Shown: positions 482 through 27,803 of the stretch, piece by piece
Position numbering within the stretch: position 1 is the stretch's first letter
Layout: every line of letters begins with the position of its first letter
Origin: Pseudomonadota bacterium
GTDB taxonomy: Bacteria; Pseudomonadota; Gammaproteobacteria; Steroidobacterales; JBCBZW01
Reading direction: 5' to 3'
DNA: 32,539 nucleotides
Assembly: GCA_039815145.1 (NCBI GenBank)
Contig: JBCBZW010000052.1
Span: forward strand, 1-32,539
Notes under the pieces: generated by a model
What the model was told of the DNA's origin: nothing
Database searches by the model: none
What the model saw: the letters and a program-made list of their open reading frames with translations, nothing else
Translations under genes and position numbers: made by a program

Positions 482-490
482 TGCTATAAT
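482..490 (+). promoter_or_regulatory. Extended -10 promoter for the polysaccharide operon
   Basis: TGCTATAAT is a perfect -10 hexamer (485-490) with the TG extension (482-483). No good -35 hexamer lies 16-18 bases upstream, which is usual for extended -10 promoters. The expected transcription start is near 497, about 20 bases before the ATG at 517. This also argues against the in-frame TTG at 490 as the translation start of the epimerase. Confidence 0.6.
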
Positions 491-516
491 TGGCAAATCA
501 ATGCTTTGGAGAACCT

Positions 517-1482
517 ATGCTTAACACGTGCATAGTCACGGGAGGCGCCGGCGCCGTCGGATCCCGCCTGACCCAGCGCTTGCTCGACGCGGGTGCCGAG
601 ACCGTCTACGTGGTGGACGACCTCTCTTCCGGTTACCGCTGGCTGTTGCCGGACGACCCGCGGGTGCAGTTCATCCAGGCGGACGTGGTGGATTTCTTCG
701 GCGGTGACTTCGATGCCGCCGACGCTCACATCTTCCACTTGGCGGCGTTTTTCGCTAATCAGAACAGCGTCGACCACCCGCTGGACGACCTCCACACGAA
801 CGGGGCCGGCACGCTGCAGGTGTTGAAATGGGCGGCCGAGCACAACGCCAAGCGCGTCGTGTACTCGTCCGCTGGCTGTTCGATCGCTGGGCACGGCATC
901 GAGGGTCCGATCGCTGAAGACATGCCGGTCAGCCTGCACCTGGACACTCCGTACCAGATCACCAAGGCGCTCGGCGAGTTCTACTGCAACTACTACCTCG
1001 AGCGCGTCTCCAGCGTCCGCTGCCGTTTCTTCAATTCCTACGGCCCGGGTGAAGTGCCGGGGCGCTACCGCAACGTCATTCCCAACTTTATCTGGCTGGC
1101 GCTCCACGATCGCCCGCTGACGATCACCGGCACGGGTGAGGAGACCAGAGACTTCATCTTCGTCGATGACCTCGTTGAGGGTCTCATCCGTTGTGCGAGC
1201 GTGGAGGCGGCGCACGGCCAGGCGATCAACCTCGGCACCGGGCGGGAAACGCGGGTGATAGACCTGGCCAAGATGGTCATCGCGCTCACCGAGTCCAGCA
1301 GCGAGATCCTCTACGCCCCGCGGCGTTCATGGGATAACAGCAAGACCCGCCAAGCGGATATCACCCGAGCGCGAGAGATCCTCGAACTCGCCCCAGACAC
1401 GGTGCTGGACACCGGTTTGGCGCACACCGTTGATTGGTTCCGCCAACATCGACCGTCGATTGCGCAAGCCACCGACTTCTGA
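517..1482 (+). CDS. NAD-dependent sugar epimerase/dehydratase (extended SDR)
   Basis: This 321-residue protein is an extended short-chain dehydrogenase of the GalE/RmlB type that acts on nucleotide sugars in the cytoplasm. Seen in the sequence: the Rossmann motif GGAGAVG at residues 9-15, a serine-rich strand YSSAG around 116-120, the catalytic YQITK (Tyr146, Lys150), and the family motif TRDFIFVDDLVEGL toward the C-terminus. The ATG at 517 was chosen because GGAG (508-511) sits 5 bases upstream. An in-frame TTG at 490 overlaps the -10 box and is rejected. It is the first gene of the plus-strand run, 67 bases before the amidotransferase gene. Family membership is sure. Whether it is a 4-epimerase, a 4,6-dehydratase or another enzyme cannot be told from sequence alone. 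Confidence 0.92.
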   Translation: MLNTCIVTGGAGAVGSRLTQRLLDAGAETVYVVDDLSSGYRWLLPDDPRVQFIQADVVDFFGGDFDAADAHIFHLAAFFANQNSVDHPLDDLHTNGAGTLQVLKWAAEHNAKRVVYSSAGCSIAGHGIEGPIAEDMPVSLHLDTPYQITKALGEFYCNYYLERVSSVRCRFFNSYGPGEVPGRYRNVIPNFIWLALHDRPLTITGTGEETRDFIFVDDLVEGLIRCASVEAAHGQAINLGTGRETRVIDLAKMVIALTESSSEILYAPRRSWDNSKTRQADITRAREILELAPDTVLDTGLAHTVDWFRQHRPSIAQATDF

Positions 1483-1490
1483 TTTAGTAC

Positions 1491-1507
1491 GCGCGCCTTC
1501 GGCGCGC
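1491..1507. other. GC-rich hairpin between epimerase and asnB genes
   Basis: GCGCGCC (1491-1497), loop TTC, GGCGCGC (1501-1507) forms a 7-bp stem beginning 8 bases after the epimerase stop. There is no T-run, so it is more likely an RNA-stabilising or attenuating element than a full terminator. It separates the first gene from the strongly coupled genes that follow. Confidence 0.3.
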
Positions 1508-1549
1508 CAGACCCTCGACGATCACCTGCCGACCTAGGTTCCTACCCAT

Positions 1550-3310
1550 ATGTGTGGACTGTTAGCTATTGCCGGCCTCGACCGCCCCTTCTCTCACAGT
1601 TTGCTGGAGAGTTTGCGCAATCGCGGACCCGATGCCATCGGATTTTGGAGCAATGGCAAGCTCAATGTGGGCCACACCCGGCTCGCGATCCTGGGGTTGG
1701 GGCACGACAACGACGAACCGATGGAAAATGATCGGTTCGTCCTCGCTTACAACGGTGAGATCTACAACTTCGGGGACCTGAAGCAACGCCTCGCCGGGGA
1801 TCGCCCGATCGGATCCCACGCCAACGACGCCGGTGTTCTCCTCGAGGGTTGGACGGCGATGGGAGAGGCGATCCTCACGCAGCTCGAGGGGTTTTGGGCC
1901 TTCGTCCTATACGACAAGCTCGAAAACAAGCTGTTCCTGGTGCGCGACCAGATCGGTATTAAGCCGCTCTACTACTACAAGTCGGGTAGTCAGATCGTGG
2001 TGTCGTCTATGCTGGGCACGATCAGTGACACGCTCGGCGGTGGCCTCACGCTCGACTATCTCGCGCTCTCCGAATACGTGCGCTATCAGTACACGTTCGG
2101 CGACAAGACGTTCTTCAAAGACGTGAAGAAGGTGCTGCCGGGGCACGTCGTCGAGATTGACCTCGACACCGGCGAGCTCGAGATGCGCTGCTACGAGGAT
2201 CTGCTCACTTCGCTCCACGGCGGCAAAGGGGTGGCGCCGGACGAGGCCTGGATGGACGAGACGCGTGCGCTACTGCGCGACTGCGTGGTGTCCGCCACGA
2301 TCAGCGACACGTCCTTTACCACCTTCTGCAGCGGCGGCATCGACTCCAGCCTGATCACCAGCATCGCGGCGCCCGAGATCGCCTATCACTGTAACTTCTC
2401 CGACCCCGACTGCAATGAGACGTTCTACGCGCAGCAGGTGGTGCGCGACATGGACACCCGGCTGTTCACGGTGAATGCGCAGGAAGACTTCGAGCTCGTG
2501 CCGAAGTTGGCGAGCATCGTGGAAGACTTCGACGAGTTGACCATCGGTTCGGTGATCCTGCCCTTGGAAGACCTGCTTTCCCAGGTCAAGCGCCGTTACA
2601 AGGTGATATTGACGGGCACCGGCGGCGATGAGCTGTTCGCCGGCTATGTGCGGTTTATGCTGGCGCGCGGCGAGTGTCGACAGGACAGTTATCGCGGTCT
2701 GTTCGAGCGCGTCATGAAGCTGGAGGGCGCCGCGCAGCGTTTTGAGCTGACCCACAAGAAAGGCGATCTCGACCTCTACCCCTTCTACGACGATGCCGCC
2801 AAGCATTCCTTCGAAACGGAGTTCGACGCCACCCTGGAGCGGGAGAAAGATGAACTCGCCGCCATGATGCGCTTCGATCAGCGCAACTTCCTGCGTGGGC
2901 TCCTCAACATCGACGACAAGATGGGCGGGCGTCACTCCCTCGAGAGTCGTCCTCCGTTGCTGCATCAGCGGCTCCTGCGTCATCTGCAGCACGTCGATCT
3001 GGGCGCCTTCCTGGAAGATGGTGAATTGAAGTCAAAACTGCGCAAGATCGCCGGTGGCCAGATCCCCGACTCGGTGATCTACCGCAAGGACAAGATGGGC
3101 TTCACGACGCCGATCGGCACCTTCGTCAATAAGTCTGCCGATCGCATCCGCGAGACCATTATGGATTCCCCCTTCCGCGACCACTACAACCTGAAGAAGG
3201 CGCGGTTCACGGCGGATTCCAAATTCTCCCGTGAGGTGTTCGGTCTGCTGATGCTGGATCTCTGGCTCAATCGTTACGCGACCCCCAGCGCCGCGCGCTT
3301 CAACGGATGA
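1550..3310 (+). CDS. asnB: Asparagine synthase-type glutamine amidotransferase (AsnB family)
   Basis: This 586-residue protein has the two-domain layout of glutamine-hydrolysing asparagine synthase. The N-terminal class II glutaminase domain begins MCGLLAIAG with the nucleophile Cys2, followed by RNRGPD (about 24-29) and YNGEIYN (about 67-73). The C-terminal synthetase domain has the PP-loop SGGIDSS (261-267) and a later GTGGDELFAGY. The ATG at 1550 is fixed because Cys2 must become N-terminal. The gene overlaps the next by ATGA. Family members inside O-antigen loci (for example Pseudomonas WbpS) are thought to amidate sugar uronic acids rather than aspartate. That role is my inference here, based on the position inside the sugar locus. 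Ordinary asparagine synthesis remains possible. Confidence 0.92.
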   Translation: MCGLLAIAGLDRPFSHSLLESLRNRGPDAIGFWSNGKLNVGHTRLAILGLGHDNDEPMENDRFVLAYNGEIYNFGDLKQRLAGDRPIGSHANDAGVLLEGWTAMGEAILTQLEGFWAFVLYDKLENKLFLVRDQIGIKPLYYYKSGSQIVVSSMLGTISDTLGGGLTLDYLALSEYVRYQYTFGDKTFFKDVKKVLPGHVVEIDLDTGELEMRCYEDLLTSLHGGKGVAPDEAWMDETRALLRDCVVSATISDTSFTTFCSGGIDSSLITSIAAPEIAYHCNFSDPDCNETFYAQQVVRDMDTRLFTVNAQEDFELVPKLASIVEDFDELTIGSVILPLEDLLSQVKRRYKVILTGTGGDELFAGYVRFMLARGECRQDSYRGLFERVMKLEGAAQRFELTHKKGDLDLYPFYDDAAKHSFETEFDATLEREKDELAAMMRFDQRNFLRGLLNIDDKMGGRHSLESRPPLLHQRLLRHLQHVDLGAFLEDGELKSKLRKIAGGQIPDSVIYRKDKMGFTTPIGTFVNKSADRIRETIMDSPFRDHYNLKKARFTADSKFSREVFGLLMLDLWLNRYATPSAARFNG

Positions 3311-4668
3311 CCCATCCCGTGACACCTGATATGCCGTCGTCGCCTGCCGCCGTCGCGACGCACGACGCCGAGTCGTCTGACCTGGGAACGGGGGGGCGCA
3401 AGCTGCGGGTCCTGTTCCTGACCCAGTGGTTCGATCCTGAGCCTGGGGCGATCCGAGGTCTGCCGCTAGCCAAATGGCTGCTCGCGCGCGGCCATGAGGT
3501 GGAAGTCATCACCGGCGTGCCGAACTACCCTGGCGGCAAGGTCTACGACGGGTATCGTGTGCGACCCTTACAGCGTGAGGTAATGGACGGCGTTCCCGTC
3601 ATCCGTGTGCCGCTCTACCCCAGTCACGATCAATCGGCGCTGAAGCGTGTTGCGAACTACGTGAGTTTCGCACTATCGGCGGCTACGATCGGTGCTGCCG
3701 CTGCCAAGCGCGCAGACATCTGCTTTGCCGTGAGCCCGCCGCCTACCCTGGGCATTCCCGCTTTGGTGCTGAAGTACCTGCGGCGTATCCCTTACGTCTA
3801 TCACGTGTCCGATATGTGGCCCGACTCGGCCGTGGAATCAGGCATGTTCGGCGACGGCTGGGTAAAGCGTGTGTCCACGAGCGTGCTCCATTGGTGGTGC
3901 AATCTGCTCTATCGGCAGGCGGATGCGGTCACCGTGCTGGCTGATGTCCCGCGCGAGGTGCTCGCGGAACGAGGCGTGCCGAAGGACAAGATCGAGGTGG
4001 TGTACAACTGGGCGGACGAGTCCTTGTTCCATCCGATGGAGCGCGATGACCAGCTGGCACAGGAGTTAGGTCTCTCGCCTGGCGACTTCAACCTGATCTA
4101 CGCCGGCAACTTCGGCGTCTTTCAGAACCTGGAAGTGGCCATACGGGCGGCCCATCAGATCGCCGAGCGCGCGCCCAAGCTCAAGCTGGTGCTCATCGGC
4201 ACGGGTACGGAAGAGGCGCGACTCAAAGCGCTCGTCGCAGAACTCGGTGCGACGAACGTCAGCTTCCATGGGCGCCGTCCTTACACCGATATGCCGGCCA
4301 TCTCGGCGCTCTCGGACGCCATGCTCGTGCACCTCAGCGACATTCCGCTGCTCCGATGGACCGTGCCCAGCAAGACCCAGGTGGCGTTGGCGATGGGTAT
4401 TCCCATGCTGATGGCTGCCACCAGCGATACCGCCAGATTGGTGTCGGAGAGTGGCGCAGGCGTTGTGTGTACGCCCGACGATCCCGATGCCATGGCCGGT
4501 GCGATGCTCGAACTCGCGGCTTTGGATCGGGCCGAGCTCCACCACATGGGGCAGGCGGGGCTGGAGTTCTACCGCCGGCGCATCTCTCTCGATCGAGGCG
4601 GCGAGATCATGGAGGGTGTGTTCGCCAACAGCCTGCAACGGCGCGCCGGACGGCGGCGCACGGCTTAA
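3307..4668 (+). CDS. Glycosyltransferase family 4 (GT-B fold, WbuB/WcaI-like)
   Basis: This 453-residue protein has the start of a GT-B N-terminal domain (LRVLFLTQWFDPEPG, about 33-47), then GHEVEVITGVPNYPGGK, a hallmark of WbuB/WcaI-like transferases. A second Rossmann domain (LIYAGNFGVFQNLEVAIRAA) and the tail SKTQVALAMGIPML match the donor-binding half of GT4 enzymes. It should transfer a sugar from a nucleotide donor to a lipid-linked intermediate on the cytoplasmic face. The start ATG overlaps the asnB stop (ATGA), and the next gene begins one base after its stop, so all three are probably translationally coupled. About 30 residues at the N-terminus are low-complexity Ala/Ser/Pro. Donor and acceptor are unknown. 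Confidence 0.92.
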   Translation: MTHPVTPDMPSSPAAVATHDAESSDLGTGGRKLRVLFLTQWFDPEPGAIRGLPLAKWLLARGHEVEVITGVPNYPGGKVYDGYRVRPLQREVMDGVPVIRVPLYPSHDQSALKRVANYVSFALSAATIGAAAAKRADICFAVSPPPTLGIPALVLKYLRRIPYVYHVSDMWPDSAVESGMFGDGWVKRVSTSVLHWWCNLLYRQADAVTVLADVPREVLAERGVPKDKIEVVYNWADESLFHPMERDDQLAQELGLSPGDFNLIYAGNFGVFQNLEVAIRAAHQIAERAPKLKLVLIGTGTEEARLKALVAELGATNVSFHGRRPYTDMPAISALSDAMLVHLSDIPLLRWTVPSKTQVALAMGIPMLMAATSDTARLVSESGAGVVCTPDDPDAMAGAMLELAALDRAELHHMGQAGLEFYRRRISLDRGGEIMEGVFANSLQRRAGRRRTA

Positions 4669-4669
4669 G

Positions 4670-5209
4670 ATGCAGTATTTGCTGTACAGGCTGGACCCTA
4701 AGCCAGATCGCGAGGCCACGACGCCTCTGCTCGAGGGCGAGGTGGTCGAGTTCTCGCCCTTCAATCTGCGCTGGCTGGTGACGGGGCTGCGCGCGGCCGG
4801 GGTGGAGTACGTGAAGATGCTCGCCCTGGCAACGCTTTACGCCGCCACGCACCTCAGTCAGGTCGGCGCGGTGAGGGTTTGGGCGTACGTCGGCGGCGGA
4901 CGCTCGATCCTGCATTACAGCGTGGTCACCCCGACGGACTTGCACATGCCTTGGCTGGACAGCACCCAGTCAGGTGTGGAGATCGGCGGATGCTTTACCG
5001 TACCTGAGGCTCGCGGCAAGCGTCTGTATCCCTACGTGCTGGATCGCATTGCAGCTTGGGCTGGTGAGAGCAGACCGATTTACATGATCGTCGAGGCGTC
5101 CAACAGCGCCTCCCGCGCGGGCATGGGGCGGGCCGGCTTTGCCGTGGCGGGTGAACTCCGTCGCGAGGGTAGGCTGGCCAGATTGCCCTGTTACCGCTTG
5201 TGCCACTGA
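4670..5209 (+). CDS. GNAT-like N-acyltransferase
   Basis: This 179-residue protein resembles the GNAT fold. The stretch EIGGCFTVPEARGKRLYPYVLDRIA contains a beta strand followed by the acyl-CoA phosphate-binding loop (ARGKRLYP in place of the usual R/Q-x-x-G-x-G/A), and IYMIVEASNSASRAGMGRAGF matches the conserved later strand and the N-x-x-S-x-x-x-x-x-x-GF element. The ATG at 4670 is chosen because it directly follows the glycosyltransferase stop. A longer upstream extension would lie entirely inside that gene. It lies 24 bases before an aminotransferase gene, so the natural guess is that it N-acylates the amino sugar made there. The substrate is inferred only. Confidence 0.75.
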   Translation: MQYLLYRLDPKPDREATTPLLEGEVVEFSPFNLRWLVTGLRAAGVEYVKMLALATLYAATHLSQVGAVRVWAYVGGGRSILHYSVVTPTDLHMPWLDSTQSGVEIGGCFTVPEARGKRLYPYVLDRIAAWAGESRPIYMIVEASNSASRAGMGRAGFAVAGELRREGRLARLPCYRLCH

Positions 5210-5233
5210 CAATCGATATTTGAGGCGAGTTGC

Positions 5234-6337
5234 ATGAGGAAGATCCCCTTTTTTGACTATCCGGCGTTGTTTGCCCGCGATGAAACCCAGTACCTGGCGA
5301 CCCTTCGTGAGGTCCTGCGAAGCGGCTTCTACATCATGGGTCCGGAACTGGCGGAGTTCGAGTCTGCGCTCGCGAATTACCTGGGTGTGAAGCACGTGAT
5401 CGGCGTGGCTGACGGCACCATGGCCTTGCTGATCGGATTGCGCGCAGCGGGGATCCAGCCCGGGGACGAAGTACTCGTGTCCGGTCACACATTCGTCGCT
5501 TCCGCGGCAGCGATACACCATTGCGGCGCCACCCCCGTGCCCGTCGACTGCGGGCCGGATCATCTGATCAGCGGCGACGCGGTGGCAGCGGCGATAACCC
5601 CGCGTACGCGCGGCATCATGCCCGTGCAGCTGAACGGTCGGACCACGAACATGGATCGCATCAATGAGGTCGTTGCAGAGCACGACCTCATCATGGTGGA
5701 AGACTCCTGCCAGGCGCTTGGATCGAGCTACGCAGGGCGCTTCGCGGGAACCTTCGGGAAGGCGGGTGCGTTCAGCTTCTATCCGTCCAAGACGCTCGGC
5801 TGCTTCGGTGATGGCGGCGCCATGTGCACCGACGACGACGCCGTTGCTGAGGCGGCGCGCTCGCTGCGCGATCACGGTCGCGGCAACGATGGAGATGTGG
5901 CCCGCTTTGGCTATAACGCTCGCTTGGACAATCTGCACGCCGCCATCCTCAACACCAAACTTGCCAACTACGACAACGAGATCGAGCGGCGTCGCGCGTT
6001 GGCGAGCATCTACCAGGCGCGCCTCGCCTCCATCGATGCGCTGCGTCTACCGCCAGCGCCGGATGCTGATTCGCGCCACTTCGATATCTACCAGAACTAC
6101 GAGGTCGAAGCGGACGATCGCGACGGCCTCAAGGCCTTCCTGGCGGAGCAGGGCGTCGGCACGATCCTGCAGTGGGGTGGGCAGATGCTCAACGACCTTA
6201 GTGCCGTTGGAAAAGACGTGAAGCTGCCCACCCTCGACGAGATGGCGAAGCGCTTCCTCATGTTGCCGATGAACACGGCGTTGGCCGACGAAGACGTGCA
6301 CTACGTGTGCGACCAGATTGAGCGGTTCTACGGTTGA
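5234..6337 (+). CDS. DegT/DnrJ/EryC1/StrS sugar aminotransferase (first copy)
   Basis: This 367-residue PLP enzyme of the aspartate aminotransferase fold transaminates a keto-sugar nucleotide, usually from glutamate. Seen: GVADGTMALLIGL (57-69), GDEVLVSGHTFVAS (77-90), VEDSCQALGS (155-164) with the PLP-pyridine Asp157, and SFYPSKTLGCFGDGGA with the Schiff-base Lys186. The length is normal for the family. The ATG at 5234 has a GAGG-like site shortly upstream. It is followed after 33 bases by the TylF-type methyltransferase gene. A second, divergent family member is at 11272-12372, so the locus probably makes two amino sugars, or the two copies act in different steps. The keto-sugar substrate is unknown. 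Confidence 0.93.
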   Translation: MRKIPFFDYPALFARDETQYLATLREVLRSGFYIMGPELAEFESALANYLGVKHVIGVADGTMALLIGLRAAGIQPGDEVLVSGHTFVASAAAIHHCGATPVPVDCGPDHLISGDAVAAAITPRTRGIMPVQLNGRTTNMDRINEVVAEHDLIMVEDSCQALGSSYAGRFAGTFGKAGAFSFYPSKTLGCFGDGGAMCTDDDAVAEAARSLRDHGRGNDGDVARFGYNARLDNLHAAILNTKLANYDNEIERRRALASIYQARLASIDALRLPPAPDADSRHFDIYQNYEVEADDRDGLKAFLAEQGVGTILQWGGQMLNDLSAVGKDVKLPTLDEMAKRFLMLPMNTALADEDVHYVCDQIERFYG

Positions 6338-6370
6338 GCCACACGAAGCAAGCACTAGGGGGACCCCACG

Positions 6371-7129
6371 TTGAGTAAGGAAACGAAGGTCTCGGGCGGC
6401 CTGCGAACGCAGACTGAGGCGGAAGAGGGGGCGCGCAACAAAGCGTGCTTCGACTCCAATCCGACCAGTTGGGAGGCCAAACTCGAGAACTTCCCAAAAT
6501 ACGTTCGTCGGCAGAATCTCACGCGTTTCCTCGCGCTGTACGAGATCTTCAAGCTGGTGCTCGAGGTGAAGGGCTCCATTGTCGAGTGCGGCGTCAACCA
6601 GGGGTATGGGGTGATGTCCTGGTGCAAGTTCTCGTCGATCCTGGAACCCGTCAACCTCACCCGACGGGTGTACGGTTTCGACACTTTCGCGGGCTTCCCC
6701 AGCTTGTCCGAGAAAGATCGATCCGAGCGCTCCCAGCACGTGCGCGAGGGGGACTTGGCCGCCGATGCGAAGGAAGAGCTCGAAGAGCTTGCCTCCGTGC
6801 ACGACTCAACGCGCTTCTTGGGTCACGTCCCCAAGCTGACCCTGATCAAGGGTGATGCGACTCAGACGATCCCCGAGTTCGTCGAGCAGAATCCGCACGT
6901 GGTCGTGAGCCTGCTGTTCATGGATTTCGATCTGTACGAACCGACGCGGGTGGCTCTCGAGACGTTTTTGCCTCGGATGCCACGGGGAGCGGTAGTCGCC
7001 TTCGATGAGCTGGACAACCCTCTGTGGCCCGGCGAGACCCAAGCGATGCTCGAGTTTCTCAAGGACCATCGCTTCCGGCTGCAGCGCTGCTCGTTCGACC
7101 CTTATATCGGCTACGCCGTACTCGACTGA
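6371..7129 (+). CDS. TylF/MycF-type class I SAM-dependent methyltransferase
   Basis: This 252-residue protein resembles the TylF/MycF family of sugar O-methyltransferases, which need SAM and a divalent metal. Seen: SIVECGVNQGYGV (69-81) as motif I of the SAM-binding Rossmann fold, VYGFDTFAGFPSL (100-112), which corresponds to the family's conserved acidic strand, and LLFMDFDLYEPTRVAL with clustered aspartates suited to metal binding. The start is TTG at 6371 with a purine-rich AGGGGG stretch about 8-13 bases upstream. No ATG lies close by in frame. It sits between an aminotransferase and the split transketolase genes, so it probably methylates a cluster-specific sugar or its precursor. The family is sure, the substrate is not. 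Confidence 0.85.
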   Translation: MSKETKVSGGLRTQTEAEEGARNKACFDSNPTSWEAKLENFPKYVRRQNLTRFLALYEIFKLVLEVKGSIVECGVNQGYGVMSWCKFSSILEPVNLTRRVYGFDTFAGFPSLSEKDRSERSQHVREGDLAADAKEELEELASVHDSTRFLGHVPKLTLIKGDATQTIPEFVEQNPHVVVSLLFMDFDLYEPTRVALETFLPRMPRGAVVAFDELDNPLWPGETQAMLEFLKDHRFRLQRCSFDPYIGYAVLD

Positions 7130-7159
7130 TCCACCACAGGAACCTGGGAACATCTGCCG

Positions 7160-7975
7160 ATGACATCTAGTGAGCACTCGCGAGATCTCGCCCACAGGAT
7201 TCGCCGTAGCGTGGTGAGGATGACGCATCTAGGCAAGAGCTCCCACGTTGGATCGGCGCTGTCGATGAGCGACATCATGGCGGTCCTGTACGGGCGGGTG
7301 TTGCGCGTGGACCCCGAACGACCGGATTGGCCGCAACGTGATCGCTTCATCCTGAGCAAGGGGCACGCCGGAGCAGCGGTCTACGCCGCCCTCGCGCATA
7401 CGGGGTTCATGGATGTGGAAACCCTGGACCAGCACTACCAGAACGGCTCGATCCTGAGCGGTCACGTCTCGCACAAGGGCGTGCCGGGCGTTGAACTCTC
7501 AACGGGTTCCTTGGGCCATGGTCTTGGCGTCGCCGTGGGTATGGCCAAGGCAGCGATGCTCAAGAACGCTGAGCACCGCGTGGTGTGCCTGTTGAGCGAC
7601 GGTGAGTGCGATGAAGGCTCTAACTGGGAAGCGGCGATGTTCGCCGCCCACCATCGCCTTCGCAATCTCACTGCGATCATCGACTACAACAACATGCAGA
7701 GCCTGGCGACGGTGGAAGAGACGCTCGCCCTCGAGCCGTTCGTGGACAAGTGGGAGGCCTTCGGTTGGACCGTGCGCGATGTGAACGGCCACGATCACGA
7801 GGCGATCGCCAACGCCTTGGCGCGTGAGCCCGATGATGACAAGCCGCTCTGCGTCGTTTGTCGCACGACGAAGGGCAAGGGCGTCTCCTTCATGGAAGAT
7901 GCGGTGCTCTGGCACTACCGCACACCGCAGGGTGAGGAGTACGACGCAGCCATGGGTGAACTCGGCGATGCGTGA
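7160..7975 (+). CDS. Transketolase, N-terminal (thiamine diphosphate-binding) subunit
   Basis: This 271-residue protein corresponds to the first domain of transketolase. Seen: GKSSHVGSALSMSDIM (25-40), FILSKGHAGAAVYAAL (63-78), GSLGHGLGVAVGMAKA (116-131), and a ThDP/Mg motif LLSDGECDEGSNWEAA running on to DYNNMQ (about 144-180). The motif begins SDGE rather than the more common GDGE. The partner is encoded immediately downstream with an 8-base overlap, so the two subunits must be made together. Central-metabolism transketolase is usually one chain of about 660 residues, whereas split forms are common in specialised sugar and natural-product loci. Context therefore points to transfer of a two-carbon ketol unit in cluster-specific sugar synthesis rather than to the pentose phosphate pathway. 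Confidence 0.9.
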   Translation: MTSSEHSRDLAHRIRRSVVRMTHLGKSSHVGSALSMSDIMAVLYGRVLRVDPERPDWPQRDRFILSKGHAGAAVYAALAHTGFMDVETLDQHYQNGSILSGHVSHKGVPGVELSTGSLGHGLGVAVGMAKAAMLKNAEHRVVCLLSDGECDEGSNWEAAMFAAHHRLRNLTAIIDYNNMQSLATVEETLALEPFVDKWEAFGWTVRDVNGHDHEAIANALAREPDDDKPLCVVCRTTKGKGVSFMEDAVLWHYRTPQGEEYDAAMGELGDA

Positions 7976-8897
7976 TCATGTCGTCAAGCGCCTGACCGAA
8001 CTGGCGCTCGAGGATCCGAGGATCATGCTGATCACCGGAGATCTGGGGTTTGGCGTGCTCGACGAATACCGCAGCAAGTGTGCGTCGCAGTTCATCAATG
8101 CCGGTGTGGCCGAGCAGAACATGACGGGCATGGCCGCTGGGTTGGCGCTGGAAGGCTTCGTCGTATTCACCTACTCGATCGGCAACTTCCCGACGCTGCG
8201 GTGCCTGGAACAGCTGCGCAACGACGTGTGCTATCACGACCTCAACGTCAACGTGCTTGCCGTTGGGGGCGGATTTTCCTACGGCCAGCTGGGCATGTCC
8301 CACCATGCCACGGAAGACCTCAGCATTATGCGGGCGCTGCCCGCTATGCAGGTGGTGGTGCCGTCCGATCCGTGGCAGGCCGCCACCGCCGTAGACGCGC
8401 TCGTGGCGCATCCGGGGCCCAGCTACATGCGCATCGACAAGTCGTCCGCCGGCCTCGAGCAACCCGCCGATGGCGGATTTGCCCTGGGCAAGGGCCGCAC
8501 GCTAGTCGCAGCCGATGGTGTCACCCTGGTGGGCACCGGAGGCATCCTCGCCGAATGCCTGGAGGCAGCTGAGCGATTGGGCGGGCAGGGTATCTCCTGT
8601 GGTGTAGTTGAACTCTCTACGATCAAACCGATCGACGTCGAGACGATCCTGGGAGCAGCGGCCCGCTCGAACTTGATCGTCACGGTCGAGGAACATTCGG
8701 TCGTCGGTGGACTTGGCGGAGCGGTCGCCGAGGTACTGGCAGACCACGGATGCGGCGTGCGTTTGCTACGCGTAGGACTCGACGATGTGTACTCGAGCGT
8801 GGTTGGCTCGCAGACCTATCTGCGGCGCCACTACCAGTTGGACGCCGAGAGCATCGTCTCGCGTATCAAGCAAGTCGTCGCGCAGAATCACCCGTGA
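7968..8897 (+). CDS. Transketolase, pyrimidine-binding and C-terminal subunit
   Basis: This 309-residue protein carries the second and third transketolase domains. Seen: LITGDLGFGVLDEY (21-34), FINAGVAEQNMTGMAAGLAL with the catalytic Glu49 that activates thiamine diphosphate, VVVPSDPWQAATAV, GPSYMRIDK, and a C-terminal domain with IVTVEEHSVVGGLGGAVAEVL. The ATG at 7968 lies 8 bases inside the upstream subunit gene. Reading further upstream would only extend into that gene. Together with the preceding protein it adds up to a complete enzyme of about 580 residues. The stop overlaps the GTG start of the sugar transferase gene, so coupling continues. Confidence 0.9.
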   Translation: MRDHVVKRLTELALEDPRIMLITGDLGFGVLDEYRSKCASQFINAGVAEQNMTGMAAGLALEGFVVFTYSIGNFPTLRCLEQLRNDVCYHDLNVNVLAVGGGFSYGQLGMSHHATEDLSIMRALPAMQVVVPSDPWQAATAVDALVAHPGPSYMRIDKSSAGLEQPADGGFALGKGRTLVAADGVTLVGTGGILAECLEAAERLGGQGISCGVVELSTIKPIDVETILGAAARSNLIVTVEEHSVVGGLGGAVAEVLADHGCGVRLLRVGLDDVYSSVVGSQTYLRRHYQLDAESIVSRIKQVVAQNHP

Positions 8898-9625
8898 AAC
8901 GAGTTCTCGACATCGTTGTCTCCGGTGCTGGCTTGCTCGTGACCTCGCCCGTTCTACTCCTCGCCGCTTTCGCCGTGTGGCTACAGGATCGCCATTCTCC
9001 CCTGTACATCGCCGATCGCGTGGGCAAGGGAGAGGTGAACTTCCGCATGGTGAAGATGCGCTCGATGGTCAAGAACGCGGCGAAGACCGGGGTGACCTCG
9101 ACCTCCGATGCCGATCTTCGCATCACCCAGGTTGGTCGACTCATCCGCAAGCTGAAGCTCGACGAGGTCACGCAGCTAATCAATGTACTCATAGGTGACA
9201 TGAGCCTGGTGGGTCCGCGACCGAACGTCATGAAATGGGGTGTGGAACTCTACACGGAGGAGGAAAAGCGGCTCCTCTCGGTGCGCCCCGGCATCACCGA
9301 CTTCGCTTCTGTGGTCTTTGCCGACGAGGGGCACATCCTCAGTCGAGAGTCCGACCCGGATCTTGCCTACAACCAGAAGATCCGTCCCTGGAAGAGTCGC
9401 TTGTCACTCTTCCACATCGATCATGGATCGTTATGGCTGGACATCAAGGTGGTGCTCTACACCGTGGTGTCCATCGTCTCTAGGGCTACCGCACTTCGGC
9501 TGGTGGCTGGTGAGTTGCGGCGCTTGGGAGCGCCTGAGCAATTGGTGGAGGTCGCGTCGAGGCGTGATTTGCTGACCGCGTACCCCCCGCCCGGTAGCAC
9601 CGAGATAGCGACGTTGGAGAGGTGA
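8894..9625 (+). CDS. Initiating sugar-1-phosphate (phosphoglycosyl) transferase
   Basis: This 243-residue protein belongs to the bacterial sugar transferase family (PglC/WcaJ/WbaP catalytic domain), which loads the first sugar-1-phosphate onto undecaprenyl phosphate at the inner membrane. Seen: an N-terminal hydrophobic segment (about 5-30), FRMVKMRSM (50-58), the catalytic Asp90-Glu91 pair in KLKLDEVTQLINVL, GDMSLVGPRP (101-110), and RPGITDFASV. It lacks the long multi-spanning N-terminal part of WcaJ/WbaP and is the compact monotopic type. The start is GTG at 8894, overlapping the upstream stop as GTGA. The last 50 or so residues extend beyond the core and are unassigned. It is the last gene before a 114-base gap with its own promoter candidate. 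Confidence 0.92.
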   Translation: MKRVLDIVVSGAGLLVTSPVLLLAAFAVWLQDRHSPLYIADRVGKGEVNFRMVKMRSMVKNAAKTGVTSTSDADLRITQVGRLIRKLKLDEVTQLINVLIGDMSLVGPRPNVMKWGVELYTEEEKRLLSVRPGITDFASVVFADEGHILSRESDPDLAYNQKIRPWKSRLSLFHIDHGSLWLDIKVVLYTVVSIVSRATALRLVAGELRRLGAPEQLVEVASRRDLLTAYPPPGSTEIATLER

Positions 9626-9654
9626 TCGTACCTCTCGTAACCGAGGCGCATCGC

Positions 9655-9684
9655 TTGACCCGCCCGATGACCGAACTGTCTAAT
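9655..9684 (+). promoter_or_regulatory. Sigma70-type promoter candidate before the dehydrogenase gene
   Basis: TTGACC (9655-9660) is followed after 18 bases by TCTAAT (9679-9684), in the 114-base gap after the sugar transferase gene. Transcription would start near 9691, about 49 bases before the TTG start at 9740. This would let the three diamino-sugar-type genes be expressed on their own as well as by read-through. Confidence 0.45.
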
Positions 9685-9739
9685 TGCGGCCTCGGATCAA
9701 GTGCTTGCGAGATGTCTGCGAGCAAAATGGGAGACACCA

Positions 9740-10801
9740 TTGATTAGATTTGCGTTGGTCGGTTGCGGTCGCATAGCCCGGCGCCATGCTGACCTGCTCG
9801 GCAAGGGCCAGATTCGCGGCGCGCAGCTGGCGGCCGTGTGCGACCAAGACCTTTCCCGAGCCCAAAAGTACGCGGATGAATTCGACGTCCCTTGCTTCAG
9901 TGACATGTGCGAGATGGCGCAGCAGGACTACGTTGACGGTCTGGTCGTGCTGACGGAAAGCGGTCACCACGCGGAGCACGTCATCGAGCTGGCGCGCTTT
10001 GGCAAGCATCTCATCGTCGAGAAGCCGATGGCGCTCACCCTCGAAGACGCCGATCGAATGATCGAAGCCTGCGACCGCAATGACGTGAGGCTGTTCGTTG
10101 TGAAGCAGAACCGCTTCAATCGACCCGTCGTCAAGCTCCGCGAGGCGCTCGATGCAGGGCGCTTTGGCCGTATGGTGATGGGGACAGTGCGCGTTCGTTG
10201 GTGTCGCACGCAGGCGTACTACGACCAGGATGCCTGGCGCGGTACGTGGGCCCTGGACGGTGGTGTCCTCGCCAACCAGGCCAGCCACCATGTCGATCTA
10301 CTCGAGTGGATGATGGGCAGCGTTCGCAGTGTCTACGCACTCAGTTCGACTGCCCTGGTCGATATCGAAGCAGAAGACACGGCCGTCGTGGCGCTGCGTT
10401 TTGCGAGCGGCGCCCTCGGCGTCATCGAGGCGACCACCGCCGTGAGACCCCGCGACCTGGAGGGCTCCCTATCGCTACTGGGCGAGCGCGGCGCTGTGGA
10501 GATCGGCGGCTTCGCCGTGAACGAGATTCGCCACTGGCACTTTGAGAATCCTCTGGCTGAGGACGACACGGTGCTGAAAGAGTTCTCGACCAACCCGCCA
10601 AACGTTTACGGTTTTGGCCACAACGAGTACTACCAGCACGTGGTGGAGAGCATCGAGAACGAGACTCAGCAGCTTGTCGACGGTCTCGAAGGTCGGAAGA
10701 GTCTCGAGTTGATCACTGCGATCTACGAGTCGATCGAAACCGGCAAGGAAGTGCCCCTGCGCTTCTCGCCGCAGCGGTGTCGGCTCGGTGAACGTGATTA
10801 G
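9740..10801 (+). CDS. Gfo/Idh/MocA family sugar dehydrogenase (WbpB-like)
   Basis: This 353-residue NAD-dependent oxidoreductase begins IRFALVGCGRIARRHADLL, a Rossmann GxGxxA/G-type motif at residues 8-13, and continues with the family motif IVEKPMALTLEDADRMI. It also has VKQNRFNRPVVKLREAL and a C-terminal GFGHNEYYQHVVESI. The TTG at 9740 was chosen because GGGAG (9729-9733) lies 6 bases upstream. A GTG at 9701 would add 13 unrelated residues. Only 6 bases separate it from the acyltransferase gene, and a DegT aminotransferase follows. In Pseudomonas, WbpB oxidises UDP-GlcNAcA at C3, WbpE transaminates and WbpD acetylates. The same three families in a row suggest a 3-amino sugar pathway here, by inference. 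Confidence 0.88.
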   Translation: MIRFALVGCGRIARRHADLLGKGQIRGAQLAAVCDQDLSRAQKYADEFDVPCFSDMCEMAQQDYVDGLVVLTESGHHAEHVIELARFGKHLIVEKPMALTLEDADRMIEACDRNDVRLFVVKQNRFNRPVVKLREALDAGRFGRMVMGTVRVRWCRTQAYYDQDAWRGTWALDGGVLANQASHHVDLLEWMMGSVRSVYALSSTALVDIEAEDTAVVALRFASGALGVIEATTAVRPRDLEGSLSLLGERGAVEIGGFAVNEIRHWHFENPLAEDDTVLKEFSTNPPNVYGFGHNEYYQHVVESIENETQQLVDGLEGRKSLELITAIYESIETGKEVPLRFSPQRCRLGERD

Positions 10802-10807
10802 GCGCAC

Positions 10808-11275
10808 ATGAACAGGCCGACGCTATTGCAGAGCGGCCTTCGAGACGTCACCTTCGGCGAGCGCGTCAAGGTGGTCGAGCCGGTCAATCTTTACGAGTGC
10901 GAGATTGGGGACGATAGCTTCATCGGCCCCTTCGTGGAGATTCAGGCTGGCGTGATCGTTGGCAAGCGGTGTCGTATCCAATCTCACTCGTTTCTATGCG
11001 AACTGGTGAGCATCGGTGACGACTCGGTCGTGGCGCACGGTGTCATGTTCATTAACGACTCGTTTAGTTCCGGTCGACCCGCCGGCGGCGATAAGTCGAA
11101 GTGGGGCGAGACGGTGATCGGTCAGCGCGTGTTCATTGGTAGCAATGCCACCTTGATGCCCGTGACCGTGTGCGACGACGTCGTCATCGGCGCCGGGTCG
11201 GTGGTAACGAAAGATATTTCCAAGCCGGGCATTTATGCCGGCAACCCAGCTAGATTTATCCGGGGGTTGGCGTGA
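10808..11275 (+). CDS. Hexapeptide-repeat N-acyltransferase (WbpD/FdtC-like)
   Basis: This 155-residue protein is a left-handed beta-helix acyltransferase. Isoleucine/valine-led hexapeptide turns recur through NLYECEIGDDSFIGPF, VEIQAGVIVGKRCRI, VSIGDDSVVAHG and VFIGSNATLMPVTVCDDVVIGAGSVVTKDI, and it ends GIYAGNPARFIRG, the standard tail of sugar acyltransferases of the WbpD/NeuD/FdtC type. It should transfer an acyl group from acyl-CoA or acyl-ACP to the amine installed by the adjacent aminotransferase. The ATG at 10808 follows the dehydrogenase stop by 6 bases, and its TGA overlaps the GTG of the next gene (GTGA). The enzyme is shorter than WbpD (about 190 residues), closer to FdtC-type enzymes, so the exact sugar is uncertain. 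Confidence 0.9.
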   Translation: MNRPTLLQSGLRDVTFGERVKVVEPVNLYECEIGDDSFIGPFVEIQAGVIVGKRCRIQSHSFLCELVSIGDDSVVAHGVMFINDSFSSGRPAGGDKSKWGETVIGQRVFIGSNATLMPVTVCDDVVIGAGSVVTKDISKPGIYAGNPARFIRGLA

Positions 11276-12372
11276 TCCGATTTCTTGATCTGCCTGGTCA
11301 GTACCAGTCATTACGGCCGGAGATCGATACGGCCATTCAATCGGTCATCGAGACCGGTGCGTTCATTGGCGGCGAGGGGCTGAAGCGCTTCGAACAGGCA
11401 TTTGCCGAATACCAGGCCGTCGAGCACTGCGTCGGCGTGGCTAACGGCACCGATGCGTTAGAGATCGCCTTCGAAGGCCTGGGGCTGGCGCCGGGGAGCG
11501 AGGTGATCGTGCCGGCGAACTCCTTTGTTGCCTCCAGCGAAGCGGTGACGCGCGCCGGACTCAAGGTGGTGTTCGCCGATATCGGCGAGCGTACGTATCT
11601 GCTCGACCCTGCCGACGTCGAGCGACGGATCACCGACAAGACCTCGGCAATCGTGGCGGTGCACCTTTACGGGCAACCGGCACCCATGGAGGAATTGATC
11701 GCCATCGCGGATAGGCACGGACTGAAGATCATCGAGGACTGTGCGCAAGCGCACGGCGCTTCTATCGGTGGTCGTACCGTGGGGAACTTCGGTTCGATCG
11801 GCACCTTCAGCTTCTATCCCGGCAAGAACCTGGGCGCGTATGGCGATGCGGGTGCGATGGTGACCAACGATGCGGCACTGGCTAAGCACTGCCGCATGAT
11901 CGCGAACCATGGCCGTGTGGAGAAGTACAACCACGAGTTCGAGGGCCGCAACAGCCGCATGGATGGGCTGCAGGCGGCGGTGCTGTCGGTAAAGCTCACC
12001 AAGCTGGATGACTGGATCGACGCACGAAACGCTGTTGCTCGTGTCTACAGCCGCGAGCTCGAGGGGGTAGGGGATGTGGTTACCCCACAGGTGCGGCCTG
12101 ATGTACGGCACGCCTACCACTTGTACGTGATAAGAACGTCACGTCGCGACGCGCTCAAGAAGCACCTTGCTGATGCGAGTATCCAGAGCGGTATCCACTA
12201 TCCCATCGCGCTGCCGAGGCTACGCGCCTACGCCGACCATCCGCAGCACGAAGAGGCATTCGTCGCGAGTGAACAGGCCCCGACGCTCTTGAGCTTGCCC
12301 ATCGGGGAGCACATGGGTGAAGAGGACGCCCTTCAGGTCGTCGCCGCTGTCCGCGACTTTTTCCGAGGGTGA
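11272..12372 (+). CDS. DegT/DnrJ/EryC1/StrS sugar aminotransferase (second copy, WbpE-like)
   Basis: This 366-residue PLP enzyme has the full family signature: GVANGTDALEIAF (55-67), PANSFVASSEAV (81-92), IIEDCAQAHGA (153-163) and the Schiff-base lysine in SFYPGKNLGAYGDAGA (Lys185). The start is GTG at 11272, overlapping the upstream stop. It differs clearly from the copy at 5234-6337 in nearly all variable regions, so it is not a recent duplicate. Coming right after a Gfo/Idh/MocA dehydrogenase and a hexapeptide acyltransferase, it probably installs the amine that the acyltransferase then acylates. It is the last gene of the plus-strand run and converges on the glycosyltransferase gene at 12433-13527. 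Confidence 0.93.
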   Translation: MIRFLDLPGQYQSLRPEIDTAIQSVIETGAFIGGEGLKRFEQAFAEYQAVEHCVGVANGTDALEIAFEGLGLAPGSEVIVPANSFVASSEAVTRAGLKVVFADIGERTYLLDPADVERRITDKTSAIVAVHLYGQPAPMEELIAIADRHGLKIIEDCAQAHGASIGGRTVGNFGSIGTFSFYPGKNLGAYGDAGAMVTNDAALAKHCRMIANHGRVEKYNHEFEGRNSRMDGLQAAVLSVKLTKLDDWIDARNAVARVYSRELEGVGDVVTPQVRPDVRHAYHLYVIRTSRRDALKKHLADASIQSGIHYPIALPRLRAYADHPQHEEAFVASEQAPTLLSLPIGEHMGEEDALQVVAAVRDFFRG

Positions 12373-16178: not shown

Positions 16179-17132
16179 GTGCAGCCTGAGTTCCTGTTCG
16201 TCGTCGGCATCGGGCGCTCCGGTACGTCTTTGCTGCAGAACATGCTGGCGGGGCACAGCGCCATCAGCTTCCTCCCGGAGAGCAGCTTTCTGCGACGCTA
16301 CGCCTTCTCGCGGGCGTTCGACAAAGGCGTGGGCGCCGGTGATCTACCCGCGTTCGCGAAGACGCTCGCCGACGACGTAGCGTTCAAGCGCTTGGGCTTT
16401 TCCGCAGAGCAAGTGCAAGAGATGCTGGCGAGCCCGGAAGGTGGTAGGGGCGCTGGCTTTTTCAGGCGTGCTGCTTACCGCTTCGGCCCACCGACACAAG
16501 GCGCCGTGTATCTGGGGGATAAGGACCCGCGCTTGATCGAGTATCTACCCTCCCTGAAGGCCGCGTTCCCAAGCGCCAAGGTCGTGCACATCTACCGCGA
16601 CCCACGCGATGTGTTCCTCTCGAAGAGCCGGGCCGACTGGGCGAAGGGCCGCACGGCGTTTGCTTACGCGTTCGCTGGTCGTGTGCAGTGGGAGCTTGTT
16701 CGCCGCACGGGCGAGGCCCTGTTCGGCGAGAACTTCTACGAGCTTGCCTACGAGCGGCTGATTGACTCGCCCGACGAAGAGATGTCGAAGCTGTGCCGAT
16801 TCCTGTCGTTGAGTCTCGAGCCCGCCATGCTCCACCCCAGCGAGGGGGGCGGTGCGCTCGTGGCCAAAGACGAGCTAGCGTGGAAGAAGGAGACGCTCGG
16901 GCCTATTCTCGCCGCCAATACGGGAAAATGGCGCACTGGCCTCGCGCCCTCGCAGATCGTCCTCGTGGAGCGAATCTCTCGCCGTCTCATGCGTGATGTC
17001 GGGTATGAGACATCATCGCTGGCGGGCGATCTGGACCCAATCGCGCGTGCGTCCATCTCGCTGCAGGCACTGGCGGCCAACCTGCTTTCCACTGTCTATT
17101 GTCGGTTGAGGCTATGGTCACAGCACACGTAG
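16179..17132 (+). CDS. Sulfotransferase family protein
   Basis: This 317-residue protein shows both nucleotide-binding elements of PAPS-dependent sulfotransferases: the 5'-phosphosulfate loop FLFVVGIGRSGTSLLQNML (5-23) and the 3'-phosphate region VVHIYRDPRDVFLSKSRADW around 135-155. The central FYELAYERLIDSPDEEMSKLCRFLSL is also typical of the family. It would transfer sulfate to a hydroxyl or amine, here plausibly on the polysaccharide or its lipid-linked repeat. The GTG at 16179 directly follows the polymerase stop, so expression is coupled. The next gene overlaps it by 19 bases. No signal peptide is seen, so it is cytoplasmic. Other family members act on small molecules, so the target is an inference from the neighbours. 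Confidence 0.88.
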   Translation: MQPEFLFVVGIGRSGTSLLQNMLAGHSAISFLPESSFLRRYAFSRAFDKGVGAGDLPAFAKTLADDVAFKRLGFSAEQVQEMLASPEGGRGAGFFRRAAYRFGPPTQGAVYLGDKDPRLIEYLPSLKAAFPSAKVVHIYRDPRDVFLSKSRADWAKGRTAFAYAFAGRVQWELVRRTGEALFGENFYELAYERLIDSPDEEMSKLCRFLSLSLEPAMLHPSEGGGALVAKDELAWKKETLGPILAANTGKWRTGLAPSQIVLVERISRRLMRDVGYETSSLAGDLDPIARASISLQALAANLLSTVYCRLRLWSQHT

Positions 17133-23812: not shown

Positions 23813-24601
23813 ATGGTGTGGTTTGATCCCTTCGTAGTGCCGTTCCACTACTTCGTCGTGGCCCACATCCTGACCGGATCGGTCGGGTTGCTCGGATTCT
23901 GGGGCCCGATCCTCACCCGCAAGGGCGCCGCCGCCCACCGACAGACCGGCCGGGTCTTCACCCTCAGCATGCTGATCACGGGCACCTTCGCCATCTGCAT
24001 GAGTATCTGCACGATCCTCGACCCCGTGACCACCCATCCGCACGTGCACGAGTCCGCGGAGCTGATTCGAGGCATCTTCGGTTGGATGATGCTCTACCTG
24101 GCGATCCTTACGATCAACCTGGCGTGGTACGGATGGCTGTGCATCCTCAACCGCAAGCAGCGCGACGCCAATCGCGGCCCGATCAACCTGACCCTGCAAG
24201 GCGTGCTGCTGGTGGCTGCGGTGAACTGCGCCTGGCAGGGGTGGTTGCTGCGCCAACCCCTGATGCTGGGTATCTCCACGATCGGGTTCGCGACGGTCGC
24301 GACGAACCTCTGGTTCCTCTACAAGCCGCGGCCAAGTGCCATCGACTGGCTGCTCGAACACATCAAGGCGCTCGTCGGCGCCGGCATTTCCGTCTACACG
24401 GCCTTCTTCGCCTTCGGCGCCGTTCGTCTCATGCCGGAGTTGGCGCTCAATCCGTTGTTCTGGTCGATACCGCTGGTGATCGGCCTCGGTCTGATCCTGT
24501 TCCACTGGCGTCGCGTGATCGTCTCGCACCGTCGTGGACGGGCCCAGCGCCGGCCAGTTCGCCAGTCAGCCTCTGCGCCTGACGTGCCCCTCGCCACATG
24601 A
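23813..24601 (+). CDS. Integral membrane protein resembling DUF2306
   Basis: This 262-residue protein has about seven membrane helices (roughly 12-32, 48-68, 85-108, 125-142, 148-166, 190-208, 216-235) and a basic cytoplasmic tail. The segment HILTGSVGLLGFWGPILTRKGAAAHRQTGRVF, with conserved histidines and HRxxGRVF, is what I recognise from DUF2306-type proteins, whose function is not established. Other histidines (HPHVHES) follow the second helix. The ATG at 23813 lies 29 bases past the shared operator. Its stop overlaps the start of the CrtD-like gene (ATGA), so the two are co-translated and the protein probably works with that desaturase or its product. It lacks an obvious resemblance to the soluble hydratase CrtC. 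Confidence 0.8.
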   Translation: MVWFDPFVVPFHYFVVAHILTGSVGLLGFWGPILTRKGAAAHRQTGRVFTLSMLITGTFAICMSICTILDPVTTHPHVHESAELIRGIFGWMMLYLAILTINLAWYGWLCILNRKQRDANRGPINLTLQGVLLVAAVNCAWQGWLLRQPLMLGISTIGFATVATNLWFLYKPRPSAIDWLLEHIKALVGAGISVYTAFFAFGAVRLMPELALNPLFWSIPLVIGLGLILFHWRRVIVSHRRGRAQRRPVRQSASAPDVPLAT

Positions 24602-27783: not shown

Positions 27784-27803
27784 GGACACACCTCATGAAA
27801 TCG

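Follow-up and report, generated by a model that had tools for sequence, protein, structure and literature searches.

A split transketolase of glycan operons and its possible role in making branched surface sugars

Results

A complete split transketolase in a glycan operon

We analyzed a stretch of 32,539 nucleotides from a Pseudomonadota bacterium (Gammaproteobacteria; Steroidobacterales; JBCBZW01; GenBank assembly GCA_039815145.1, contig JBCBZW010000052.1), referred to here as the window, in which two adjacent genes of a glycan locus encode the halves of a split transketolase. The genes lie on the plus strand in the following order: a DegT/DnrJ/EryC1/StrS aminotransferase (DegT; 5234-6337, 367 aa, PF01041 E 6e-98); a TylF/CalS11-type O-methyltransferase (Methyltransf_24; 6371-7129, 252 aa, TTG start, PF05711/PF13578); TktN, the thiamine diphosphate (ThDP) pyrophosphate-binding half of the transketolase (7160-7975, 271 aa, PF00456 E 2e-44); TktC, the pyrimidine-binding and C-terminal half (7968-8897, 309 aa, PF02779 and PF02780); and a polyprenyl-phosphate sugar-1-phosphate transferase (PHPT; 8894-9625, PF02397 E 5e-49).

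The tktN and tktC genes share an 8-base overlap and together encode 580 residues, in which the pyrophosphate-binding, pyrimidine-binding and C-terminal transketolase domains all score over their cut-offs. This agrees with an earlier reading of the same DNA from its letters alone (the sequence-only reading), which had placed four genes at 5234-8897 and taken the coupled pair for a complete transketolase of about 580 residues. The closest solved structure for both halves is the split transketolase of Carboxydothermus hydrogenoformans: its N half, 6yak, is the nearest solved chain to TktN (E 4e-73), and 6yaj is nearest to TktC (E 5e-58). TktN matches PF00456 with 152.6 bits and the E1 dehydrogenase family E1_dh with 24.8 bits, slightly above the cut-off of 22, and E1 dehydrogenase is not its best family. 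Nor does the pair resemble the decarboxylase superfamily to which the branching enzyme YerE belongs: both halves match transketolase models best, and a decarboxylase model reaches 18 bits, in TktN only.

A full-length transketolase is encoded separately in the genome (6.0 Mb in 295 contigs), by a 684-aa frame on contig C3 (E 2e-160). TktN and TktC (TktNC) are therefore not the housekeeping enzyme, and they are not the sole or main transketolase of the genome. The absence of any other full-length transketolase, which the sequence-only reading had named as fatal to its own interpretation, is thus not what we found.

The catalytic residues are kept and the substrate site is changed

We scanned a collection of genome contigs, with one genome per species, and found 386 TktC relatives. 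The best 80 of these (48-73% identity, several phyla) and the window make up a set of 81 loci. TktN was also seen in 80 of the 81; in the only locus without it, L062, TktC stands at the very start of the available stretch.

Conserved positions are given in E. coli TktA residue numbers. The ThDP and proton-relay places (H26, H66, H100, D155, N185, H261, E411 and H473) are invariant across 79 TktN and 81 TktC proteins, with one X at H66; in the window's numbering, TktN His29, His69, His102, D147-G148-E149, N177 and H252 are invariant in the 79 TktN proteins bar one X. The substrate site is another matter, with Gly29, Gly100 and Leu108 as the changes in the window's TktC. Across the family, the H461 place is Gly in 80 of 81 TktC proteins, the D469 place is Leu or Val in all 81, and the S385 place is Gly in 75; these three residues presumably contact the phosphate and the C2 hydroxyl of the substrate. 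Arg is kept at the R358 place in 80 of 81, and the R520 place is Lys in 49 and Arg in 32. The residue set of an ordinary sugar-phosphate transketolase (H461, D469 and S385 with R358 and R520) is thus not present. Because the ThDP residues are invariant and the H461, D469 and S385 places are replaced, we conclude that the catalyst has been kept and the sugar-binding part remodelled. The Carboxydothermus enzyme, in contrast, has His and Asp at the H461 and D469 places, and its depositors name it a transketolase.

Distribution and forms of the pair

A survey of the window's own class gave a TktC match at E <= 1e-45 in 16 of 303 genomes, the window's included, with TktC identities of 33-52% in the others. 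On plasmids there was no TktC match at E 1e-60. In a Brevundimonas locus (L017, 9116-10912), whose record has ambiguous bases, a single open frame of 598 codons spans TktN and TktC; in the relatives L016 and L020 of this locus, TktN is a separate frame. Long frames in L035 and L022 hinted at DegT-TktN or TktC-PHPT fusions and turned out to be overlapping frames instead. We note that in L013 and L022 tktN is divergent and lies upstream of DegT-TktC-PHPT, so that the two halves are on opposite strands. A more distant TktNC clade (38-46% identity) is found in L111, L112, L113 and L114. Directly 5' of tktN, L111, L113 and L114 have a 4,6-dehydratase-like gene, which in L113 and L114 scores below the curated cut-offs; a gmhA-like gene in L113 and a nucleotidyltransferase-like gene in L112 perhaps mark a heptose variant.

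CDP-glucose genes occur with the pair

In four of the 81 loci (L043, L071, L082 and L087), rfbF, rfbG and rfbH stand in one run with tktN-tktC, with rfbH directly before the pair; in three of the four, a short-chain dehydrogenase/reductase (SDR) gene directly follows it. The L087 proteins score 404 (RfbF), 459 (RfbG) and 719 bits (RfbH), well above the curated NCBIfam cut-offs. The class survey added L108, with rfbF-rfbG directly before tktN, L110, with rfbF-rfbG separated from the pair by three genes, and L109, with rfbH beside TktNC, for seven loci with CDP-glucose genes in all. The product of this pathway is CDP-3,6-dideoxy-4-keto-glucose, the sugar on which YerE forms its branch in Yersinia (PMC12247030). 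In L059 and the more distant L124, rfbF and rfbG lie some kilobases away. The four RfbH-type pairs have no PHPT gene within 2.6 kb, as expected for a CDP-sugar that does not initiate a glycan.

The order RfbH-TktN-TktC-DegT in L109 was considered as support for amination after branching and dropped: the best match of this DegT is LegC, so it probably serves another sugar. In L110, genes of the sulfotransferase family and of the APH-type phosphotransferase family lie between rfbG and the SDR-TktN-TktC set (L110:2018-4053).

An E1-alpha/beta pair stands in place of TktNC beside a related aminotransferase

Two class-survey loci, L106 and L107, encode a DegT (54 and 50% identity) and a PHPT (62 and 56%) like those of the window, and have no TktC at E 1e-45. 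Between the DegT and PHPT genes they have instead an E1-alpha gene (PF00676, 207 and 197 bits), for which E1_dh is the sole Pfam match, and an E1-beta gene. A survey of 398 genomes of the phylum added L119, with an E1 pair in the same order, L117, with an E1 pair in another order (see Discussion), and L120, a further TktNC case; the E1 pairs of the other three loci are 52-65% identical to that of L106. Taking both surveys together, the DegT subfamily of the window (at least 46% identity) stands beside a ThDP pair in six of six resolvable loci, two with TktNC (the window included) and four with E1; a seventh such DegT, L118, lies on a contig end.

As a control, we took the 20 other DegT matches of the class survey (36-43% identity) together with as much as 6 kb of flanking sequence either side, some stretches being cut by contig ends. 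Neither TktNC nor an adjacent E1 pair was found at any of the 20; at one control locus (L147) an E1-beta match of 26% identity lies about 4.8 kb off. Of these control genes, 18 are closer to a second DegT of the window than to the first. The occurrence of DegT and PHPT operons with either pair indicates that two classes of ThDP enzyme replace each other in the DegT context.

TktNC is mostly paired with DegT or with an aldo-keto reductase

We typed the 81 loci by their partner genes; a DegT was counted if it was at least 36% identical and lay no more than 1.2 kb away, an aldo-keto reductase (AKR) if it lay within 2.6 kb. By these limits 36 loci are of DegT type and 24 of AKR type, no locus has both partners, four have RfbH, and the other 17 lack all three. 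Fisher's test for the mutual exclusion of DegT and AKR gives p 3e-8, with the caveat that related loci are not independent. An earlier and looser rule, used for the residue counts by type and for the tree below, typed L017 and L056 as DegT through distant DegT genes, and L048 through a piece of DegT about 4 kb off; the counts of neighbouring genes follow the stricter limits. On the tree the types cluster without forming single clades: they need 18 changes, where shuffled types need 41.7 on average. Swaps of partners have therefore probably happened more than once.

The looser rule also bears on the SDGE motif of the window (TktN 146-149), which stands in the ThDP motif where GDGE is usual. The sequence-only reading had remarked on it, correctly as to its presence. 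Its first position is Ser in 38 of 39 TktN proteins of DegT-type loci and Gly in all four of RfbH type and in 18 of 22 of AKR type; because nearly all DegT-type proteins share it, this Ser is normal for the group and loses the significance given to it.

Other genes recur around the pair. In 67 of the 81 loci a PHPT gene is no more than 2.6 kb from TktNC, and the nearest solved relative of the window's PHPT is N,N'-diacetylbacillosaminyl-1-phosphate transferase. A TylF relative lies within 2.6 kb in 24 of the 36 DegT-type loci, and the remark of the sequence-only reading that precedent does not extend to this gene set was too narrow. The closest solved relative of the window's methyltransferase is CalS11, a TDP-rhamnose 3'-O-methyltransferase of the calicheamicin pathway, which acts on a different sugar (E 1e-45). 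The lysine that binds pyridoxal phosphate is present in all 36 DegT-type aminotransferases (Lys186 in the window) and is replaced by His in all four RfbH proteins.

Of the 36 DegT-type loci, 23 have a gene of the GNAT (13 loci) or Methyltransf_11 (11 loci; one locus has both) family within 3.5 kb, and of the 24 AKR-type loci none does (p 1e-7); the references for both families were taken from DegT-type loci only, and other families could be missed. Putative amine-modifying enzymes thus accompany the presumed amine-making enzyme. Six AKR-type loci have genes of two clusters, the scanned members of which are Acyl_transf_3 proteins. In the window, the gene at 4670-5209 (plus strand) is placed in the GNAT group by its predicted fold. 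It had no family match in the Pfam and NCBIfam scans; its alignment keeps G106, R115, N145, S148 and G156. The AlphaFold model (predicted local distance difference test, pLDDT, 85) has as its top match in the PDB 3frm, a protein of unknown function (E 1.5e-5), and most matches after it are GNAT acetyltransferases, with a query template-modelling score of about 0.4-0.6. We propose that it is a putative N-acetyltransferase for the amine made by DegT.

Discussion

A possible route to a branched sugar

Most likely, TktNC puts a two-carbon side chain on an activated sugar and does not serve central metabolism. The CDP-glucose genes, the exchange with an E1 pair and the DegT-or-AKR pairing suggest a ketol transfer onto a nucleotide keto-sugar. 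Together with the changed substrate site, they lend support to the core of the sequence-only reading, namely that such a transfer would yield a branched, methylated amino sugar; the ansamycin precedent and the weight it placed on SDGE did not hold up.

We think it probable that TktNC is one ThDP enzyme that moves a ketol unit to a nucleotide keto-sugar, and that the branch is then aminated, acetylated and methylated and the sugar loaded by PHPT. TktNC would take a two-carbon ketol (glycolyl) unit from a ketose phosphate or hydroxypyruvate and add it to a ring ketone, most likely at C-4, giving a tertiary alcohol with a hydroxyacetyl branch. DegT would aminate the new branch ketone, and the GNAT protein would acetylate the amine. 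If the keto-sugar has a single ring ketone, this cannot serve both enzymes, and DegT should act on the ketone made by the ThDP enzyme. The TylF/CalS11-type enzyme may methylate a ring hydroxyl of the nucleoside diphosphate (NDP)-sugar, and PHPT would load the finished sugar on undecaprenyl phosphate, making it the initial residue of a surface glycan. An AKR or SDR would reduce the branch ketone instead in related operons. We infer every chemical step of this route, along with the C-4 site, the UDP carrier, the donor, the acceptor, the order and the product.

The family itself comprises a complete split enzyme with a changed substrate site, in a recurring operon whose ThDP and finishing enzymes are exchanged. 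A broader and more tentative reading, which we regard as quite possible, is that several phyla share an unrecognized, modular route to C-branched surface sugars. An exchangeable ThDP ligase (TktNC for glycolyl, E1-alpha/beta for acetyl) would act on UDP- or CDP-keto-sugars, and an exchangeable finisher would turn the branch ketone into an alcohol (AKR, SDR) or an amine (DegT, followed by N-acetylation or N-methylation). The product of the window would then belong to a new class, an N-acetylated, O-methylated 4-C-(1-amino-2-hydroxyethyl) sugar that forms the first residue of the glycan.

Alternative explanations

It could also be that TktNC branches a nucleotide keto-sugar and that DegT uses a C-3 or C-4 ring ketone, either of that sugar or of a different one; the amine would then sit on the ring, and the branch would keep its ketone or have it reduced by an enzyme encoded elsewhere. 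The nearest solved relatives of the window's DegT are the transaminase 2oga, probably DesV, and WbpE and QdtB, all three presumably ring-ketone aminotransferases, and its best NCBIfam match is PseC, below the cut-off. A dehydratase product, however, offers one ring ketone, for which DegT would compete with the ThDP enzyme; the absence of loci with both DegT and AKR inside the limits and the company of the DegT subfamily (six of six beside a ThDP pair, none of 20 for other DegT genes) also speak against it, and we consider this explanation unlikely. A decidedly improbable alternative is that TktNC works ahead of nucleotide activation and builds a sugar phosphate that is longer or carries an amino group, much as a split transketolase probably does for aminoshikimate in ansamycin biosynthesis. 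Phosphate could still bind, as R358 and R/K520 are kept, and the gmhA-like and nucleotidyltransferase-like genes of the distant L113 and L112 would fit. Against this stand the changed H461, D469 and S385 places and the annotated partner groups, which include no sugar kinase or isomerase and in which CDP-glucose dehydratase, CalS11-like methyltransferase and PHPT recur. The aminoshikimate partners are 3-amino-5-hydroxybenzoate (AHBA) synthase, aminodehydroquinate synthase and kanosamine kinase; a search confined to ten proteins of the window (490-10801) found none of them among the NCBIfam matches. We therefore rejected an ansamycin-type aminoshikimate role, and with it the precedent that the sequence-only reading had invoked.

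A ThDP ligase and an aminotransferase could also give a small amino ketone or alcohol, finished by the GNAT protein or a methyltransferase, so that a non-sugar amino alcohol or acyl group would decorate the glycan. The runs of rfbF, rfbG and rfbH and the frequent PHPT tie TktNC to activated sugars, which makes this very improbable. That TktNC is an extra, ordinary transketolase for the pentose phosphate pathway is hardly credible: all transketolase domains are present, but a full-length enzyme is encoded elsewhere, the pair lies in a glycan operon and its substrate site is changed. A housekeeping role was rejected on account of the enzyme on C3.

Several observations weigh against the proposed ketol transfer and branch amination. 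The ring-ketone roles we ascribe to the DegT relatives are one, and we know of no precedent for amination of a branch ketone by a DegT enzyme. We found no biochemistry for any member of the TktNC family, and to our knowledge no polysaccharide structure has been linked to TktNC loci. The 80 loci were chosen with six query peptides, including MSHHATED and RNDVCYHD, which favors the motifs of the query; because these peptides drove the scan, conservation within them was partly selected for. The typing limits were set after the gene table of the loci had been seen, and two AKR-type loci come close to breaking the exclusion: L017 has a 33% DegT on the opposite strand, 78 bases off, and L056 a 31% DegT about 3 kb off, both below the identity limit. 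In L117 the order is E1-alpha, E1-beta, DegT, PHPT, so that the pair does not lie between DegT and PHPT. A CapD-type dehydratase lies within 11 kb in 15 of 36 DegT-type and 7 of 24 AKR-type loci, many stretches being shorter than this, and the single strong CapD match of the window's genome is on contig C33, in another glycan locus.

The 17 loci without DegT, AKR or RfbH inside the limits also count against the proposal. In L029 and L062 the sequence available upstream of the pair is short or absent, and L042 and L048 have a DegT just beyond the limit or about 6 kb off. Seven are clostridial PHPT-TktN-TktC sets (L040, L061, L065, L067, L074, L076 and L086), in which the pair either works with PHPT alone or depends on a keto-sugar made elsewhere. 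L070, L081 and L084 are near a gene of a short-chain-dehydrogenase cluster (one cluster gene was scanned); the remaining loci are L011, L015 and L045, of which L015 has such a gene as well.

We note two further observations. No other sugar gene was identified near the seven clostridial sets, and L061 has a ParB gene directly upstream. The second glycan locus of the window's genome (L130; G000:C33:28000-45360) encodes CapD (a 671-aa frame), a DegT and a PHPT 30% identical to that of the window, and is a possible source of a UDP-4-keto-sugar.

Precedents and significance

AviB1/AviB2 and Pau11/Pau12 are E1-like two-subunit ThDP enzymes. One paper assigns AviB1/AviB2 and their homologues Pau11/Pau12 to the C-4 acetyl branch of antibiotic sugars and reports that the AKR Pau7 was shown to reduce the paulomycin branch ketone (PMC4753412); in another, the pyruvate-dehydrogenase-like pair EvdU5/EvdS3 of everninomicin is hypothesized to act in eurekanate formation (PMC10338323). 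These systems resemble TktNC in their two-subunit ThDP enzyme and, in paulomycin, in the AKR. Two unrelated contexts thus couple such an enzyme with an AKR, since TktNC-AKR loci and antibiotic pairs both do so. Unlike TktNC, the AviB1/AviB2 class belongs to the E1 family, occurs in antibiotic clusters and gives an acetyl branch. The E1 pairs of L106 type are likened to AviB1/AviB2 by their descriptions, not by sequence.

A 2025 review describes YerE as a decarboxylase-superfamily protein that moves activated acetaldehyde to CDP-3,6-dideoxy-4-keto-glucose in Yersinia (PMC12247030), and YerE is called a flavoprotein in two other papers (PMC10338323, PMC4753412). The route to yersiniose A of the Yersinia pseudotuberculosis O-antigen leads from CDP-glucose to a 4-keto-sugar, followed by a ThDP-dependent two-carbon transfer and reduction of the branch ketone; the four rfbFGH TktNC loci share the CDP-glucose genes and would follow a similar course, three of them with an SDR. 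Unlike YerE, which uses pyruvate as donor and transfers acetyl, the split transketolase TktNC should add glycolyl. The window also differs from the yersiniose system: it has DegT and PHPT, and its scanned genes include none for CDP-glucose.

In the same review, split transketolases of miharamycin and amipurimycin are proposed to transfer hydroxyacetyl to a keto-sugar, branching in lipopolysaccharide is ascribed to YerE-like decarboxylases and transketolases mainly to specialized metabolism, and 13 further candidate split transketolases are counted, all from Streptomycetes and none characterized in vitro (PMC12247030). The miharamycin and amipurimycin enzymes are split like TktNC but belong to secondary metabolism; we liken them by published description only. 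On our analysis, YerE, AviB1/AviB2-Pau11/Pau12 with Pau7, and the proposed miharamycin and amipurimycin enzymes are better precedents than ansamycin.

C-4-branched sugars, and the formation of branches by ThDP enzymes (YerE; two-subunit E1-like enzymes), are already known; shewanellose, for example, is a C-4-branched 2-acetamido-2,6-dideoxyhexose (PMC4052302). A search of open-licence PMC full text with transketolase terms gave no paper that deals with split transketolases of glycan loci. The split-transketolase family described here has 386 matches in a single genome collection, and at most of the 81 loci it keeps company with glycan genes. Similar pairs in glycan loci of several phyla would mean that branched surface sugars are commoner than known, and the family would predict which strains have branched, possibly aminated sugars. 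The family also supplies, from nature, candidates for ketone-accepting transketolases with which chiral tertiary alcohols could be made, and it opens the question of whether a transketolase can use a ketone acceptor to direct test.

Other genes of the window

Upstream of the pair, the glycan operon includes an asparagine-synthase-like amidotransferase (1550-3310), whose gene cluster is present in 10 of the 81 loci, and a WcaI-like GT4 glycosyltransferase (3307-4668, plus strand; Pfam Glyco_trans_4_4/Glycos_transf_1), whose cluster is present in 24, the window being counted in both. Downstream of PHPT, three plus-strand genes form a presumed WbpB/WbpD/WbpE-like trio: a Gfo/Idh/MocA dehydrogenase (9701-10801, PF01408/PF02894), a gene presumed to be WbpD-like from its position and the gene pattern (10808-11275), which clusters with genes of seven other loci, and the second DegT, WbpE-like and 33% identical to the first (11272-12372). 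We propose that the trio (9701-12372) makes a second amino sugar, and we do not take the second DegT as the partner of TktNC. L107 has a comparable WbpB/D/E-like trio two genes past PHPT. Further along the window, near the glycan locus, are a sulfotransferase (16179-17132), a cytochrome P450 (22310-23677) and two facing genes of the FAD amine-oxidase family (24598-26190 and 26212-27789).

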